Below, piece by piece: positions 23,840-38,563 of a stretch of DNA of 38,563 nt. Within the stretch, counting starts at the first letter, position 1. Each line of letters starts with the position of its first letter. This stretch comes from a virus. The stretch lies in the IMG/VR virus record IMGVR_UViG_3300012964_000025, positions 1 to 38,563 of that record, one strand, 5' to 3'. Both the position numbers and the translations under genes were made by a program. The notes under the pieces were generated by a model. It saw nothing but the letters and a program-made list of their open reading frames with translations. It did no database searches and had not been told where the DNA came from.

Positions 23840-24160
23840 TTACATAAAGCCTTTAACGTCATTCCGGCTTGACCGGAATCCTTCTTTCCCATCACTCAGC
23901 AGATACTCCCTGCCTGCCGGTGATATCAGCCTGCCCTCGATGATCTTCCACTTGTCGTAATTCCTCACCGTCCTGACCGACAAGCCATATTTCCCGGCAA
24001 TATCAGCATAATTGCCAGTCTTCAGCTCAGCCTTCACCTTCATCACAATCACATACACCGGCATCCTGGACGGGATCTCGATCCGCTCCCCTGCAAACCG
24101 CTGCCTGATTCGCTCCGCCAGCTCCTCGTTCCCGATCATCGCCGCCAGTTCATGCCACAT
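23840..24160 (-). CDS. Mor-like transcription activator, candidate late-gene regulator (106 aa)
   Basis: The pattern LAERIRQRFAGERIEIPSRM followed by a helix-turn-helix (NYADIAGKYGLSVRTVRNYD) matches the Mor/C family of Mu-type middle and late activators, which dimerise and turn on promoters just downstream. It is the last gene before the late operon and overlaps the replication gene start region by 11 bases. The last ten residues (EGFRSSRNDVKGFM) are encoded by a family C repeat that has altered the natural C-terminus. Confidence 0.65.
   Translation of the reverse strand: MWHELAAMIGNEELAERIRQRFAGERIEIPSRMPVYVIVMKVKAELKTGNYADIAGKYGLSVRTVRNYDKWKIIEGRLISPAGREYLLSDGKEGFRSSRNDVKGFM
23858..23886. 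repeat. Palindromic repeat family C at the activator C-terminus
   Basis: GTCATTCCGGCTTGACCGGA with ATCCTTCTT. It matches the copy at 21417-21445 except at one base. It is translated as the tail of the Mor-like protein. Confidence 0.85.
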
Positions 24161-25013
24161 TCAGCGTTCCCTCCAAGAAACTTATTTTCCGCTGCAGCTT
24201 TGTGATCTCCTCAATCCAGCCAGGGCGCCGGGCATCATCGTCGTCAGTGTGATCGAGATACCCCTGCTTCCGGGTCTTCATCTCATACGCCCGCCTCAAT
24301 TCTTCCTTCAGCCGCTCCCGCTTCTCATCACTGCCCGCCGCTGCCTTTTCCGGTTCCCTGTGATTGATCCACTCCCTCCAGCTGTTAAACCATGTGCTGC
24401 CCTGTTGCGGATGCTTCCAGGTGTTTGCCTTCAGATGCTTCAGATAGTTCTCCAGCGCGGTCTGGATGTCTTGTCTGTCTTTCTCACCCTTAACAGAGTC
24501 TTTGAAGGCCTTTAAGGCTTTGGTGCGTCCGAGTTTTGAAGGATACCGCTTCCATAATTTCTCGAACAAAGCAAGCGGATCATCTGCAGGATGATCTATA
24601 TTCTTTTTTATATTGGTATATAATGATAAATCCGACATCACATTTTTGTGATCTCGGCTCGTATTTTTTCCCTCCGACATCACATTTTTGTGATCTCGGC
24701 TCGTGTTATCAACAGGGTTATTAACACGGGTTTTTCCCGTTACTGGATAGATCCTTCGCTCGCTGCCTCCAGCCGCAAACCTCTTCATTTCGATCTCGAT
24801 AAACCCCTTTTTCCCGAGCCTGTTGATCATCCTGCTGATACTCCCCGGACGCCGGCCGTACAGCTTCGCAAAGTAATCATTGCCCGCAAAACAACAGCCC
24901 TGCGGCCCACATAGCGCCGTAATTTCAGAAAACAGGATCTTCTCCATCGGTGACAGCTCCGCGTCATACCTCACCCCCGCCGTAAGCACCGAAAAATACG
25001 CCGGATCAGCCAT
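24150..25013 (-). CDS. Replication initiator, lambda O-like (287 aa)
   Basis: The N-terminal winged helix has FSVLTAGVRYDAELSPMEKI, LFSEITALC, then FAKLYGRRPGSISRMINRLG and KKGFIEIEMKR, the helix-turn-helix pattern of phage replication proteins of the O/DnaD kind. Residues about 105-130 contain a 14-residue tandem duplication (NTSRDHKNVMS twice) made by the origin-like repeats. The C-terminal half resembles the conserved region (FEKLWKRYPSKLGRTKALKA, STWFNSWREWIN) that in such proteins recruits the helicase loader or helicase. No helicase gene is seen, so host DnaB is probably used. It overlaps both neighbours. Confidence 0.75.
   Translation of the reverse strand: MADPAYFSVLTAGVRYDAELSPMEKILFSEITALCGPQGCCFAGNDYFAKLYGRRPGSISRMINRLGKKGFIEIEMKRFAAGGSERRIYPVTGKTRVNNPVDNTSRDHKNVMSEGKNTSRDHKNVMSDLSLYTNIKKNIDHPADDPLALFEKLWKRYPSKLGRTKALKAFKDSVKGEKDRQDIQTALENYLKHLKANTWKHPQQGSTWFNSWREWINHREPEKAAAGSDEKRERLKEELRRAYEMKTRKQGYLDHTDDDDARRPGWIEEITKLQRKISFLEGTLNVA
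24595..24726. other. Predicted replication origin inside the initiator gene
   Basis: Two identical 32-base direct repeats lie at 24631-24662 and 24673-24704, 42 bases apart (four helical turns), each containing the dyad ATCACATTTTTGTGAT. An AT-rich tract (TTCTTTTTTATATTGGTATA, 24601-24620, continuing to 24630) adjoins them on one side. TTATCAACA at 24706-24714 and TTATTAACA at 24718-24726 resemble DnaA boxes on the other. In lambda, iterons and an AT-rich segment lie in the same way inside gene O. The call is by analogy. Confidence 0.6.
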
Positions 25014-25582: not shown

Positions 25583-25616
25583 TTTCACCCCCTTGCACGG
25601 TCGGCATAATAAGTTG

Positions 25617-26177
25617 TTATAAATCCGTGGGCGAACAGCCGAACAGCCTCGGTTCAGCAATCGCCTTTCTCTCTGCAAGGCATATCGTGTCATGTTGCCT
25701 CCTCCCATGCGAAACTAAAAGCAAATCAATTATTTCATAGCCTTTTACCTCAGACATGCACGTTGAAGACCATCCAAACGAAAGCACTATTCCTCCGGGC
25801 CTCAGTATTCCGTCAATCAAGTCTCGTTCTGTTTTATAGCCTAAAGACTGTGCATCCTTTTCCGTAAACTCCATTCCTATGCCCGCGTAGCATTCTTTCA
25901 GTTGTGTCACGCTGTATGGTGGGTCAAAAAGCACCAAGTCAGCTTGCACTCCCTTGTCTTGTAGCAGCTTCAAAAATTCATGCGCGGGCAAGTGGTATTC
26001 AGCTTCCGTTTCGGGGTTCAGGTCGTTTGTGTATGTCGCCCATCTCTTGTTACGGGCGAAAGGGTCAACCGACAGTTCCGACTTTATCAGGTACTTTTTC
26101 ACAAAATACGCTATGTCCTGAATGTCGAACGTATCCGCATTCGGAAAGCTCCACACCCTCTGAAAAGGAATAATCAC
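25617..26177 (-). CDS. Cassette 1: adenine-type DNA methyltransferase (186 aa)
   Basis: DPFARNKRWATYTNDLN provides the SAM-binding region (an F/D-containing substitute of motif I, as in this phage family), and VLFDPPYSVTQLKECYAGIG contains the catalytic DPPY of amino-methyltransferases. A C-terminal beta segment (GGIVLSFGWSST) completes the fold. Likely substrate: adenine N6, although DPPY enzymes can also modify cytosine N4. Start is GTG 26177 in the cassette end, with no strong SD. The stop TAA is the reverse complement of the cassette-boundary TTA at 25617. It is the leftmost of three cassettes and ends FGCSPTDL, encoded by cassette-end sequence. Likely protects phage DNA from restriction. 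Confidence 0.82.
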   Translation of the reverse strand: MIIPFQRVWSFPNADTFDIQDIAYFVKKYLIKSELSVDPFARNKRWATYTNDLNPETEAEYHLPAHEFLKLLQDKGVQADLVLFDPPYSVTQLKECYAGIGMEFTEKDAQSLGYKTERDLIDGILRPGGIVLSFGWSSTCMSEVKGYEIIDLLLVSHGRRQHDTICLAERKAIAEPRLFGCSPTDL

Positions 26178-26198
26178 AGCAACAGCCCGCCCACGGAT

Positions 26199-26276
26199 TT
26201 ATAACAAGTCATTCAACTTCGCTCCCTTCGGTCGCCCGACGCGGAGGAACCGCGCGGGTTAATTCCAGCGTTATAA
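26199..26276 (+). other. attC site of cassette 1
   Basis: The boxes are R'' TTATAAC (26199-26205) and R' GTTATAA (26270-26276), L'' ATTCAAC and L' GTTAATT with an extrahelical C, and a 78-base imperfect palindrome overall. The pairing extends beyond the boxes: in the excised circle, CGCCCACGGATTTATAAC would pair perfectly with GTTATAAATCCGTGGGCG from the cassette start at 25616. Canonical top strand is plus. Recombination point is expected between G 26270 and T 26271. Confidence 0.9.
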
Positions 26277-27035
26277 AACTTTGCGCGAACAGCCAACAGC
26301 CTCGGTGTTCTCGTCCGCTTCTTTGAACATTCTTCTGATCTTCGGAATATTACGGTATTCTTCGCAATCTTCATTTTCAAGGTGTCCTTTCAGTCCTATA
26401 TCGTCAAAATCATCTTCGTTACAAAACGGGCATTTCATAATTTGTTCTCCTATCCATTCCGTATAGGCGGGCGGGATTGCCAGTCCTAATTCAAACTGAG
26501 TCATCCAGTCTATACCCATCGCCTCTTTGCCCTTCTCGTGGCAGGAAGGCCCGCGCATGTCTCCAATCCGGCGGCAGGATTTTGTTAGCACAGTCACAAG
26601 GTCGCCGGAATGGTCACAGGTGCCAGGCGTCATAAAAAACATATTGGATTCAAATAGCCGGTGCCTTGCGACTTTTAGGCCGAACATCGTGCCGCAAAGC
26701 ATAAATGGGCTTATCAGCGGCGCACCGGCTACGTTTTCGATTACATACGGCTTGCCGCTTGCAATCAGCGCATTACGGGTTTCCGGTATCAAGTCCTTAT
26801 GCTCCCTTGTACTTGTCAGCTTTGTCAGCGAAGAATGCGCCTGGCAGGGCGGGGAAGCGTGTATCACATCGTATTCGTGCCCGTGTGCGCGCAGATAGTC
26901 CAGCGCGTCGGCTTCGATGAAGGCGAAAGGATATCGGGGCTGTGGCTTAATGTCCACGCCTGTCACCTCAAACCCGGCCCGGTGGTAGCCCATTCCCGCG
27001 CCGCCAGCCCCTGAATATAAATCTAATAACTTCAT
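26271..27035 (-). CDS. Cassette 2: C5-cytosine DNA methyltransferase with zinc-finger tail (254 aa)
   Basis: Motif I is LLDLYSGAGGAGMG, motif IV with the catalytic cysteine is ASPPCQAHS, motif VI is VIENVAG, and motif VIII is ARHRLFES. AIPPAYTEWIGEQI is the C-terminal SAM motif. A tail with CPFCNEDDFDDIGLKGHLEN and EDC looks like a zinc finger fused after the normal end of the enzyme. ATG 27035 follows GGGCTGTTGCC. The last residues, AVGCSRKVL, and the TAA stop come from the cassette boundary at 26271. This enzyme would methylate cytosine in phage or host DNA; the recognition site is unknown. Confidence 0.9.
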   Translation of the reverse strand: MKLLDLYSGAGGAGMGYHRAGFEVTGVDIKPQPRYPFAFIEADALDYLRAHGHEYDVIHASPPCQAHSSLTKLTSTREHKDLIPETRNALIASGKPYVIENVAGAPLISPFMLCGTMFGLKVARHRLFESNMFFMTPGTCDHSGDLVTVLTKSCRRIGDMRGPSCHEKGKEAMGIDWMTQFELGLAIPPAYTEWIGEQIMKCPFCNEDDFDDIGLKGHLENEDCEEYRNIPKIRRMFKEADENTEAVGCSRKVL

Positions 27036-27059
27036 AGAGGCAACAGCCCGCGCACAGTT

Positions 27060-27137
27060 TTATAACAAGTCATTCAACTACGCTCCCTTCGGTCGCCCGA
27101 CGCGGAGAAACCGCGCGGGTTAATTCCAGCGTTATAT
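27060..27137 (+). other. attC site of cassette 2
   Basis: R'' TTATAAC 27060-27066 and R' GTTATAT 27131-27137 enclose a 78-base site nearly identical to attC1 (two substitutions seen). Its extended arms, CGCGCACAGTTTTATAAC and GTTATAAAACTTTGCGCG at 26270, pair with one mismatch in the excised circle. Such attC similarity inside an array is typical of a single chromosomal integron source. Confidence 0.9.
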
Positions 27138-27731
27138 TTTTGCGGGGGAACAGCCAACAGCCATTTGGCCCCACTGTTCCGCCATCGCTTTTGCAATTCC
27201 ATCATATGTTTTACTCCTTAATTTCGCCCTGTCCGGAGAAGGCGGCAATTTGTGTAATCTCTGTTCTCTGCCTTGGTCAATCACCGTTGACATTAAAGGT
27301 GGCAATCCCTTCAGCCAGAGGCATGTTGCTTTTGTCTCTCCGTGTCCGAAAAACCACGGCTGAATCACTTGGTCATATTTGCGCCCTATTATTTCAAGGG
27401 CGTATTTGTGCGGTATTGGATTCTCAACCGCAATCATCGGAATCGGCGCATCCAGAAACAGCCGGAAGAACTCCGCACCTTTCCTCATGTCATCCCAAAG
27501 GTTCCGCTTCTCAAGCCAGCACACGCCAGAGTTACAAAGTCTGGTGCAAGGCGGGTGTGCTATCAGCATGTCCCAATCGCTGCAAAGAATGTCTCTCACA
27601 TCTCCTTGGTAGTGGTTGCCTGGCGTGTCTGAAGGCAAAATATCACAGGACCAGGCTTCGTGTCCTTTCGCTGTGAAGGCATCTCTCACGGTTCCGCTGT
27701 ATTCGCAAGCAACTAAAATTTTCAACGGCAA
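27132..27731 (-). CDS. Cassette 3: C5-methyltransferase-like protein (199 aa)
   Basis: The N-terminus KILVACEYSGTVRDAFTAKG is a known phage variant of motif I. AHPPCTRLCNSGVCW holds a PPC with candidate catalytic cysteine, AVENPIPHK resembles motif VI (ENV), and a WFFGHGETKATCLWLKGLPP segment follows. It is a short C5-type methyltransferase family, probably DNA-directed; some members may be inactive. Start is TTG 27731, or the next TTG that gives MKILVACEY. A G-run from the cassette end may serve as SD. C-terminal AVGCSPAKI and TAA come from the boundary at 27132. Confidence 0.78.
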   Translation of the reverse strand: MPLKILVACEYSGTVRDAFTAKGHEAWSCDILPSDTPGNHYQGDVRDILCSDWDMLIAHPPCTRLCNSGVCWLEKRNLWDDMRKGAEFFRLFLDAPIPMIAVENPIPHKYALEIIGRKYDQVIQPWFFGHGETKATCLWLKGLPPLMSTVIDQGREQRLHKLPPSPDRAKLRSKTYDGIAKAMAEQWGQMAVGCSPAKI

Positions 27732-27747
27732 CAGCCCCCCCGCAAAA

Positions 27748-27836
27748 ATATAACAAAGCCTTCAACGCCCGACGCTGAATAAGCGTCAGTGGTTTCGGCA
27801 TTTGTGGTCTCAGCGCGGGTTAAGGCCACGTTATGA
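27748..27836 (+). other. attC site of cassette 3
   Basis: R'' ATATAAC 27748-27754 and R' GTTATGA 27830-27836, with L'' CTTCAAC and L' GGTTAAG. The central part is longer (89 bases in all) with its own stem GACGCT/AGCGTC. The outer extension (CCCCCGCAAAAATATAAC against GTTATATTTTTGCGGGGG at 27131) is perfect. Sequence otherwise differs from attC1 and attC2, so this cassette has another origin. Confidence 0.85.
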
Positions 27837-27840
27837 TTCT

Positions 27841-28041
27841 TCAGAATACCCACTCAGGCAGTCCTTCTATCTCAACCGCCAGCCAGCCCGTAGGCACGAT
27901 CACCTTTCGGCCATCCTTCAGATTTAGCCTGTGCGTACCGCTTGGCCTCACGCATATTTCTTCAATCTCATCGAAGGTCACGCGGTCATTGTTCGGGAAA
28001 ATGTACGTCCTTTTCTTTTCATTCACTGTTTTGAAATCCAT
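27841..28041 (-). CDS. Small early protein (66 aa), right flank of the cassettes
   Basis: ATG 28041 is preferred because GGAGG lies seven bases upstream; ATG 28047 is too close. The protein has the pattern YIFPNNDRVTFDEIEEICVR, then GWLAVEIEGLPEWV, a small beta-rich fold resembling short phage proteins that bind a partner. No attC is found on its 5' side, so it appears to be phage sequence next to the array and not a fourth cassette. Function unknown. Confidence 0.5.
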   Translation of the reverse strand: MDFKTVNEKKRTYIFPNNDRVTFDEIEEICVRPSGTHRLNLKDGRKVIVPTGWLAVEIEGLPEWVF

Positions 28042-28210
28042 TGCCATCCTCCTTGTATTCGAGAATTAATAAGTCTCTTTTTTTCGTGCGTCCGGCCTCG
28101 TGCCATCCGGCTTTTTTAAAGCAACAGCCGGGGTTTGTTGAACGAATCTTTCGCGGGTTTATGTATGTATATAGGCGTTCTCCGGGCCATCGTTGCCCAG
28201 CTCTCGCCAT
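28019..28210 (-). pseudogene. C-terminal remnant of a conserved phage protein
   Basis: The 63 residues ERLYTYINPRKIRSTNPGCC, then FKKAGWHEAGRTKKRDLLIL match the C-terminal end of a larger phage family of about 180 residues (INP-KIRSTNPG motif), but no N-terminal part is in frame upstream beyond SALIREAMARA. The upstream region instead encodes a 33-residue frame. The rest was probably lost by a deletion. It overlaps the start of the next gene by 23 bases. It may still be expressed as a short protein. Confidence 0.5.
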
Positions 28211-33121: not shown

Positions 33122-34207
33122 ATGGCGCTCTATCTTCGCGGCAAAGTATGGTGGATGGATATAACCCTGGGCGGCGTGCGTCTCCAGGAGCCGTTAAAGC
33201 AGGCAAAGAACCGCTCTCAGGCGCTCCGGATACAGGAAGATCTCCGCTCGAAATTCCGCAACAAGCAGCTGCACATCGAAGATCTCCACCCCCTGCCGCT
33301 GGCCTTCGCCGCAAAGCACTACCTCGAGTACTGCAAGGCAGTCAAAAGCGAACGAACGTACGAGCTTGAATTTACCGACTATAAAAAGCACCTTCACCCT
33401 GCCCTGGGCTCCGCGCTGATGCCGCTCTCTGCCGATATCCTGAAACGCTATCAGACACAAAAGAAAAAACAGGGCTATGCAAACAGGACCGTAAACATCC
33501 ATATCGGCCTGGTCCGGAAGATCCTCCACTATGCGAAAGAAAAAAAGTATATCCATGAAATCAACTTCAAATTCCCCATGCTGCCCGAGTCGCAGAAAAC
33601 AGCGGCCTTCCTGTCACCCAAGGAACTTCCGGCCTTCCTGCGGCAGCTCAGCTACTCTATGGCCTATAGGCGGAGCCTGTTCGGGATCTGCACCGGACTG
33701 CGGCCTGCGGAGCTGGCATATCTCTCCTGGGATGATATCGACCTTGCGATGCGGACCGCGCGGATCCGCTCGAAGCCTCCGGCCTGGACCATCAAGACAA
33801 AACAGGAGCGCGTCGTCCCGCTCAACAATACGGCGCTCCGGATCCTCCGGGATCTCCGCAAGGAAAGGAAAGGCCCCTGGGTGTTCTCCACCGGCCCGAA
33901 GCCGGTCAAGTCCATCAGGAAGGCGCTCGATACCGCCGCCACAAATGCAGGGATCAAACGCAGGATCACCCCGAACATGCTCCGGCATACCTTCGCCACT
34001 CACGCCCTGATGCGCGGCGCCGACATCAAAAGCGTCTCAGAGATCCTCGGTCACAGCAGCATCGAGACAACCATGAAATATCTGCACGCCATCAAGGAGC
34101 AGCTGCAGCGGACCGTCGGCCTCATGGACCTGCCCGGGCTCAAAACCCCTACATTTCCCCTACATTCCAAAAAGAAGGACCTACGGAAAAGCTCCGTAAG
34201 TCCTTGA
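33122..34207 (+). CDS. Tyrosine integrase (361 aa)
   Basis: A tyrosine recombinase with arm-binding N-terminus (YLRGKVWWMDITLGG), core-binding domain and catalytic domain. Catalytic residues are Arg in GICTGLRPAELAYLSW, Lys in KTKQERVVPL, Arg in NMLRHTFATHAL, His in EILGHSSIETT, and Tyr in TTMKYLHAI. The usual His of HxxR is Asn here (PNMLRH). It lacks the extra IntI helix, so it is a phage integrase and not an integron integrase. Its C-terminal tail is encoded by the attP arm repeats. It is next to the tRNA-Pro core. Confidence 0.92.
   Translation: MALYLRGKVWWMDITLGGVRLQEPLKQAKNRSQALRIQEDLRSKFRNKQLHIEDLHPLPLAFAAKHYLEYCKAVKSERTYELEFTDYKKHLHPALGSALMPLSADILKRYQTQKKKQGYANRTVNIHIGLVRKILHYAKEKKYIHEINFKFPMLPESQKTAAFLSPKELPAFLRQLSYSMAYRRSLFGICTGLRPAELAYLSWDDIDLAMRTARIRSKPPAWTIKTKQERVVPLNNTALRILRDLRKERKGPWVFSTGPKPVKSIRKALDTAATNAGIKRRITPNMLRHTFATHALMRGADIKSVSEILGHSSIETTMKYLHAIKEQLQRTVGLMDLPGLKTPTFPLHSKKKDLRKSSVSP
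34175..34205 (+). terminator. Hairpin at the end of the integrase gene
   Basis: AAGGAC and TACGGA pair with TCCGTA and GTCCTT with a five-base loop, overlapping the last integrase codons. It is followed by GATTT only, so it may be a weak terminator. Confidence 0.5.
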
Positions 34208-37456: not shown

Positions 37457-38563
37457 TCAGTTCGTATCCGTCAGCGTGCCATTGAGTCCCATAACGGACC
37501 AGATGCCGGCCTCCTGGCATGCTATGGAAACGTATTTCCCGACAGCATCGCAGGTGAGCGTTACGCTGTCTCCTCCGGAATTGACATAGCCCTCGAACAA
37601 TTCCGTCCCGTATGGCTCCAGTTTGATGTTCTGCAGCGCCTTGCAATAGAACATCGCCGAATCGCCGACCCGGGCGACCTCTGTGAATGTAAAGGTAATT
37701 GCGCCTGTTGCTGATTTATTATTGTAGACATTTTTTCTCAGCATGTTAGAAGTCAGATTCTGAGATGATGAAAAAGATGATATGTGAGCTTTCCCCGTAT
37801 CAACTGTCTCGCCATTTAACTGTAATACAGCCACAACCTCCTTCAACGAGAATGAATCCAGCGTAAAGGCTTGCCCTGCTGCCAGAGTAGTTGCGATTGA
37901 AAAAGAACTAGTGCTTTGGGCTGTAAAATAGAGAGTATGTGTTCCTGCTGTCAAATCTAACGCGGTCATATTGGCATCAAGGGCATATGCGATCCGAGCT
38001 GTCGGACTGCCTGAAACTCCCGAAACCGTGTATACAAATTTATATCGTGCATTCTCTGCAGGGGGAATAGCCATATCCACGCTATTTTGATATATTTCTG
38101 CTGCTGCTCCAGCAGAATAGGTGCACGTAGCGGCATTGGCAGCTAATGCGCAATCACCTCCGGGTGTCGCTGTCCAGCTTGTTCCACTAGTCAAATTGGG
38201 ATTTGTCAATGATTCTGCTGACGCTAAAGATGTCTCTTCGGAGAAAACTATCTGTGCCCCTGTTGAGGCATCCTCAATGGTTGGTGTGAGCCAGTAAGTA
38301 TCTTTCCAAACGACTACTGGAGGCCATACCGAACCATCATTGAGGTTAATCCAGTGGCTACCTGTTGATGAGGACGTGTCAGGTGATGCCGTACCAGACT
38401 GCTGGACATTTTGCCATGTGTTATAATACCCATGATCTGCAAAAGCTCCTGCGGCCATATATGAATTATTTATGACGTTGTTGAATCGGCTGCTTGTTGA
38501 CAGAATAACTCTGCACCCACTATCGAGGATGGTTGACGTATTCAGGTTATACCCGTATATATC
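37457..38563 (-). CDS. Tailspike, C-terminal part (runs off right end)
   Basis: An open frame continues past base 38563; 369 codons including the stop are visible. It starts with beta-helix coils (YGYNLNTSTILDSGCRVILS, SSRFNNVINNSYM), then WINLNDGSVWPPVVVW. A CBM4/9-like module from about residue 110 to 235 (LTNPNLTSGTSWTATPGGD to DSFSLKEVV) is similar in type to that at 12219. A beta-sandwich (GAITFTFTEVARVGDSAMFY, VTLTCDAVGKYVSIACQE) ends the protein. It is probably the C-terminal half of the gene starting at 1582, with at least two bases missing between the window ends. Confidence 0.72.
   Translation of the reverse strand, partial: DIYGYNLNTSTILDSGCRVILSTSSRFNNVINNSYMAAGAFADHGYYNTWQNVQQSGTASPDTSSSTGSHWINLNDGSVWPPVVVWKDTYWLTPTIEDASTGAQIVFSEETSLASAESLTNPNLTSGTSWTATPGGDCALAANAATCTYSAGAAAEIYQNSVDMAIPPAENARYKFVYTVSGVSGSPTARIAYALDANMTALDLTAGTHTLYFTAQSTSSFSIATTLAAGQAFTLDSFSLKEVVAVLQLNGETVDTGKAHISSFSSSQNLTSNMLRKNVYNNKSATGAITFTFTEVARVGDSAMFYCKALQNIKLEPYGTELFEGYVNSGGDSVTLTCDAVGKYVSIACQEAGIWSVMGLNGTLTDTN

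Follow-up and report, generated by a model that had tools for sequence, protein, structure and literature searches.

The viral record IMGVR_UViG_3300012964_000025 (38,563 nucleotides, analysed over its full length and referred to here as the window) carries, within a phage operon, a tandem array of three integron cassettes, each holding one predicted DNA methyltransferase gene that is encoded antisense to the attC sites. We favour, with a probability of about 0.78, an explanation in which this array is a CALIN in a phage, its reversed methyltransferase cassettes being swapped by a host integrase, expressed from a phage promoter and protective against restriction. During the time that phage DNA spends in the cell, the host's integrase would act on the attC sites, so that cassettes are gained, lost or exchanged. 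Given their reversed orientation, the genes (assumed to be promoterless) would be read from the phage early promoter and not from the integron Pc, and reversed polarity would make the cassettes useful in phage operons. Methylation of the phage DNA by these enzymes would then shield it from cleavage by host restriction enzymes, with adjacent enzymes of several specificities giving broader protection. Bacteria capture genes by means of integrons, and they hold off phages to a large extent by restriction-modification; if phages do trade anti-restriction cassettes via a host integrase, the very machinery with which the host captures genes would aid the phage against host defence.

A preliminary description of the sequence had proposed three attC sites with R''/R' and L''/L' boxes and a bulged base, to be checked with a covariance model. 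We used a calibrated model trained on 32 attC sites from other viral and bacterial loci, with no window sequence in the training set, and searched the window with filters off. All three sites were matched as proposed (Table 1). They are the only matches in the 38.6-kb record, all on the plus strand, and no further attC was found on either strand up to E = 10. A purpose-written motif detector picked the same three sites, and the RNAalifold consensus of the 32 training sites recovered the R''/R' and L''/L' helices and the bulged base unguided. Both box pairs, the extrahelical base, an AAC...GTT core and a foldable bottom strand are present in the window sites; in attC3, the final site of the array, R' comes from the non-cassette flank. 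In 299 kb of other loci the model gave a single match (27.8 bits, L090) that, judged by eye, is plausibly a genuine attC in a relative of the window phage. This one attC-like site (L090:5459-5508) lies between two genes that both oppose it and holds a stop codon in its R' box; the portal protein of that contig is ∼ 41% identical to that of the window phage. Rfam models at their gathering scores gave no match to the attC regions.

Table 1. Features of the cassette array and its surroundings in the window, and cassettes common to pairs of other viral contigs.
Feature	Position or contigs	Strand	Length	Evidence and remarks
Cassette 1	25617-26270		654 bp	Own ends complementary 18/18, inverted repeat
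Cassette 2	26271-27131		861 bp	Own ends complementary 17/18, inverted repeat
Cassette 3	27132-27830		699 bp	Own ends complementary 18/18, inverted repeat
Array left edge	25616..25617			Sequence; cut point G/TT of cassette 1
attC1	26199-26276	+ (top strand)		Covariance model, 41.9 bits, E 8.1e-9
attC2	27060-27137	+ (top strand)		Covariance model, 41.3 bits, E 1.2e-8
attC3	27748-27836	+ (top strand)		Covariance model, 33.0 bits, E 1.9e-6
AACAGCC direct repeats, cassette inner flanks	25633-27737	+		Motif positions
Predicted methyltransferase 1, DPPY (N6/N4) type	25617-26177	-	186 aa	ORF; phrog_11619, E 6e-36
Predicted methyltransferase 2, C5 type	26271-27035	-	254 aa	PF00145, E 3e-5; phrog_363, E 5e-44
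Predicted methyltransferase 3, C5-like phage family	27132-27731	-	about 197-199 aa	phrog_757, E 1e-60
Phage replication initiation gene	24150-25013	-		phrog_270, E 1e-34
Shared cassette	L205/L219		332 bp	100% identity
Shared cassette	L149/L219		341 bp	97% identity
Shared cassette, Mom	L171/L181		651 bp	94.5% identity
Shared cassette, Lar	L100/L110		224 bp	100% identity

When a cassette circularises, its two ends together make one attC, so that its end should pair with its own start and not with that of the next cassette. The complementarity over about 18 bases that had been proposed was borne out in exactly this form (Table 1), whereas the ends pair with the starts of the other cassettes at only 8-15 of 18 bases. 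The three cassettes are thus discrete units running from G/TT to G/TT. At the left edge of the array the flank AATAAGTTG is not an attC and gave no covariance match, and inspection of the sequence recognised no attI there. The stop codon of each methyltransferase gene sits inside an R' box (TAA for methyltransferase 1). A candidate decayed fourth cassette at 27832-28160, with a further GCAACAGCC at 28121, was rejected for want of a covariance match.

Just inside both ends of each cassette lies the motif AACAGCC (at 25634, 25642, 26181, 26288, 26295, 27042, 27149, 27156 and 27730). These flanks are common to the three unrelated window genes and to a cassette in another phage (L097:1129-1803), which argues that payloads vary within a constant shell; the shared flanks also account for a GCS motif at the C-termini of all three window proteins. 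The pattern looks as if genes had been swapped within a fixed AACAGCC shell.

As had been described, each cassette holds one methyltransferase gene, one of the DPPY type and two of the C5 type. The three products are predicted to be DNA methyltransferases from family matches together with SAM-binding and catalytic motifs: GAGG, PPCQ and ENV in methyltransferase 2, and PPCT and ENP in methyltransferase 3, which has at least 80 relatives on viral contigs. An anti-restriction role of the cassette enzymes is a reasonable inference. The predicted start codons of methyltransferases 1, 2 and 3 (26177, 27035 and 27731) are GTG, ATG and TTG. No obvious Shine-Dalgarno sequence precedes the three cassette genes; a strong one, AAGGAGG, stands before the neighbouring phage gene (start 28047).

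The placement of the array in a podovirus operon also stands. One minus-strand operon contains the array and, downstream of it, the replication initiation gene, and the record encodes terminase (phrog_38), head-tail connector (PF12236, the podovirus type) and capsid (PF19821) of a tailed phage. The phage is probably temperate, since it encodes a phage-type tyrosine integrase and a Cro/C1-type regulator. Minus-strand frames overrun both ends of the record (1-1735 and 37457-38563), and a check for exact repeats of 20-299 bases at the two ends gave none; the record may represent a complete genome in circularly permuted form, or may have been cut within the tail genes.

A complete integron consists of intI, attI and a Pc promoter. 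On the integron-integrase model TIGR02249 the sole tyrosine recombinase noted in the window (33122-34207) reaches 74 bits, against a cut-off of 265, and neither the window nor nine further viral records contain an integrase above that cut-off. With no intI over the cut-off and no attI recognised at the left edge, the locus falls short of a complete integron. Because it has tandem attC sites (three within 1.7 kb) and no intI, we class it as a CALIN, as the preliminary description had done.

A comparison with related phages, which that description had also called for, was informative in part. L097, a different phage, has an attC ∼ 91% like those of the window and exactly the first 25 bases of cassette 2, and its cassette carries another methyltransferase-like gene than those of the window. 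In L086, the nearest relative with the locus, the neighbouring genes are kept and the array is missing at the equivalent place. The neighbouring proteins of L086 are only 33-60% identical to those of the window, too distant for it to demonstrate an exact empty site. The replication initiation gene used as a query returned no relatives, and the attC1 region had no match among 50,697 named phages. A search of the viral and genome collections with the shared inner-flank pattern gave L097 as the only genuine match and no bacterial donor; matches to L115-L133, including two in genome contigs, were put down to chance. Neither a donor integron nor an empty site for the window array was found among the collections searched.

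These negative results, and the lack of intI, would also be expected if the array had entered the phage once by ordinary recombination, its genes being retained and its attC sites lying idle; Qi et al. (PMC9892861) suggest entry by homologous or illegitimate recombination. The R' of attC3, which matches R'' only in the core bases of the outer flank, points the same way. We nevertheless regard such a fossil as unlikely. The attC boxes and the own-end complementarity are intact in all three cassettes, and other phage cassettes are up to 100% identical, have their edges at the cut site and lie between flanks that are unrelated. Among the matches listed, four cassettes are common to otherwise different viral contigs whose adjoining sequences are unrelated (Table 1). 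Their edges fall at G/TT with one deviation: on the left side of the L100/L110 cassette, the GTT is followed by four bases that are not the same in the two contigs, which makes this junction depart from the ideal product.

Cassette genes usually, though not always, lie on the same strand as their own attC and are read toward it. All three window genes run along the phage operon on the minus strand, antisense to the attC top strand (+), and no window cassette has its gene and attC co-directional. We therefore counted orientations in viral and bacterial arrays. Viral contigs were gathered by attC patterns in IMG/VR, most via one pattern, and control arrays were taken from 526 bacterial genomes (18 arrays, genome G180 contributing many sites). 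The gene adjoining each site was scored in arrays of at least two sites, clustered and de-duplicated; the attC detector, its thresholds and the ORF rule were purpose-written, and unannotated viral ORFs were oriented by ORF length. An earlier orientation count that included chance sites was dropped. Among the matches listed, the unique viral sites were 67 reversed and 19 canonical, with 38 of 124 unclear, and the viral arrays were 26 reversed, four canonical and eight unclear. The ratio of reversed to canonical in the small bacterial control was 0:28 for unique sites and 0:13 for arrays. With the viral counts limited to the matches listed, the difference is significant for sites (Fisher, 2e-14) and for arrays (7e-8).

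The deposited annotation of named phages follows the same trend. Of the four phages that Qi et al. (2023) illustrate, three are reversed: PH101 and MW202573 by deposited CDS strands and covariance-model matches, and P12002L by deposited CDS and an attC read by eye, a site that the covariance model misses. The fourth, TJE1, is canonical by deposited CDS and covariance-model match. A Pfam check found 15 families among the 89 reversed viral ORFs and gave no match among the 46 sense viral ORFs (both among the matches listed), but this zero undercounts canonical cassettes: it omits the methyltransferase of L005, whose frame enters the attC. The L005 array is canonical, and its methyltransferase is 71% identical to methyltransferase 3.

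Could the orientation bias be a by-product of sampling, arising from few cassette lineages, misassigned bacterial DNA and a control drawn from few integrons? The size of the control (18 arrays, many sites from G180) and the single attC pattern that yielded most viral contigs are in keeping with this. We think it quite unlikely, however: many attC types occur among the reversed viral arrays, bacterial sites whose R boxes are of the ATAAC type, as in the window, are canonical too, and PH101 and P12002L are isolated, named phages that are reversed as deposited.

Polarity also bears on where the cassettes came from. The proposal that they were acquired through a host integron was not sustained, as the searches turned up these flanks in no bacterial array. 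Since the polarity is opposite to that of the bacterial arrays examined, a phage-to-phage pool is at least equally indicated, and reversed polarity suggests a phage-adapted pool of exchangeable anti-restriction cassettes. More tentatively, and at somewhat less than even odds, phages may keep a pool of their own, distinct from that of bacteria and enriched for anti-restriction functions, in which inverted cassettes are exchanged between unrelated phages by host integrases and expressed from phage operons, the inversion itself being selected. Selection would act because inversion makes the recombinogenic attC bottom strand coincide with the non-template strand of the transcribed operon, or through orientation to the replication fork. 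The operon of the window phage has this bottom strand as its coding (non-template) strand, an arrangement that may favour hairpin formation or spare transcription. Excision rates change with array orientation relative to replication (PMC8946536). We dropped the idea that attC polarity follows the replication fork by a fixed rule: judged by gene order alone, the window and P12002L would disagree.

Folding the sites as single-stranded DNA, a further check that had been proposed, was of partial help: the bottom strand differs from shuffled sequences (z about -2.2), and is not clearly better than the top strand. We prefer the covariance model because folding is weak and fails to discriminate the strands. 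It is very improbable that the repeats just resemble attC and are in fact regulatory hairpins separating phage genes, as their position between operon genes and folding energies only about two standard deviations past shuffles might allow. Against this stand the 33-42 bits from an externally trained model (bacterial integrons included), the bulged base, both box pairs and self-pairing cassette ends, the last of which would not be expected of a plain operon hairpin.

The cargo of other reversed viral cassettes accords with exchange of anti-restriction genes by a host integrase. Among the matches listed, Pfam identified N6_N4_Mtase (three), D12 (two), Lar (two) and one each of Mom, C5, MT-A70 and Dam, and PHROGs concur; the recognised families are mostly DNA modification or restriction alleviation, while most viral cassette genes in the same matches belong to no Pfam family. 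One reversed phage cassette (L137:7209-7991) encodes a PAPS-reductase-domain protein (PF01507, weak).

Phage CALINs with methyltransferase cassettes are already known. The study of Qi et al. (2023, PMC9892861) describes 17 CALINs among 10,705 phage genomes, with five methyltransferases in cassettes; like the window, these are attC arrays without intI and with methyltransferase cargo. It regards the structure of the TJE1 and PH101 arrays as the most typical and reports that IntI1 recombined attC sites of PH101, TJE1 and P12002L in an assay; reversed polarity goes unmentioned in its text. The statement that attC sites are rarely reported in phages therefore agrees with this literature and fails for metagenomic viruses: one degenerate attC pattern matched at least 119 IMG/VR stretches, and since many of these are real arrays, attC arrays are not rare there. 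The polarity bias and the edge-precise sharing of cassettes are apparently new, as we did not find them described in the literature searched, most subscription journals lying outside its scope. The polarity rule is simple and can be tested on public genomes; it could distinguish phage-derived from bacterial cassettes and inform cassette origins.

The window shares attC architecture, one gene per cassette and head-to-tail tandem sites with bacterial chromosomal and mobile integrons. It differs from them in having no integrase, no recognised attI and antisense genes (3/3 versus 0/28). Its genes belong to the same families as phage orphan methyltransferases, Lar and Mom (phrog_757, 363 and 11619 in the window; Lar and Mom in sister arrays), but unlike orphan anti-restriction genes they are packaged as exchangeable integron cassettes. 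The closest known system is Polaribacter phage P12002L, with two methyltransferases in a CALIN and genes that also run against attC. The window differs from P12002L and the other CALINs of Qi et al. in its three tandem methyltransferase cassettes and near-identical attC1 and attC2. In P12002L (L291), attC-like intergenic hairpins at 37190-39000 also border a Mom-like gene and an additional methyltransferase, which suggests that this phage holds more cassettes than its two reported methyltransferases (near 29-32 kb).
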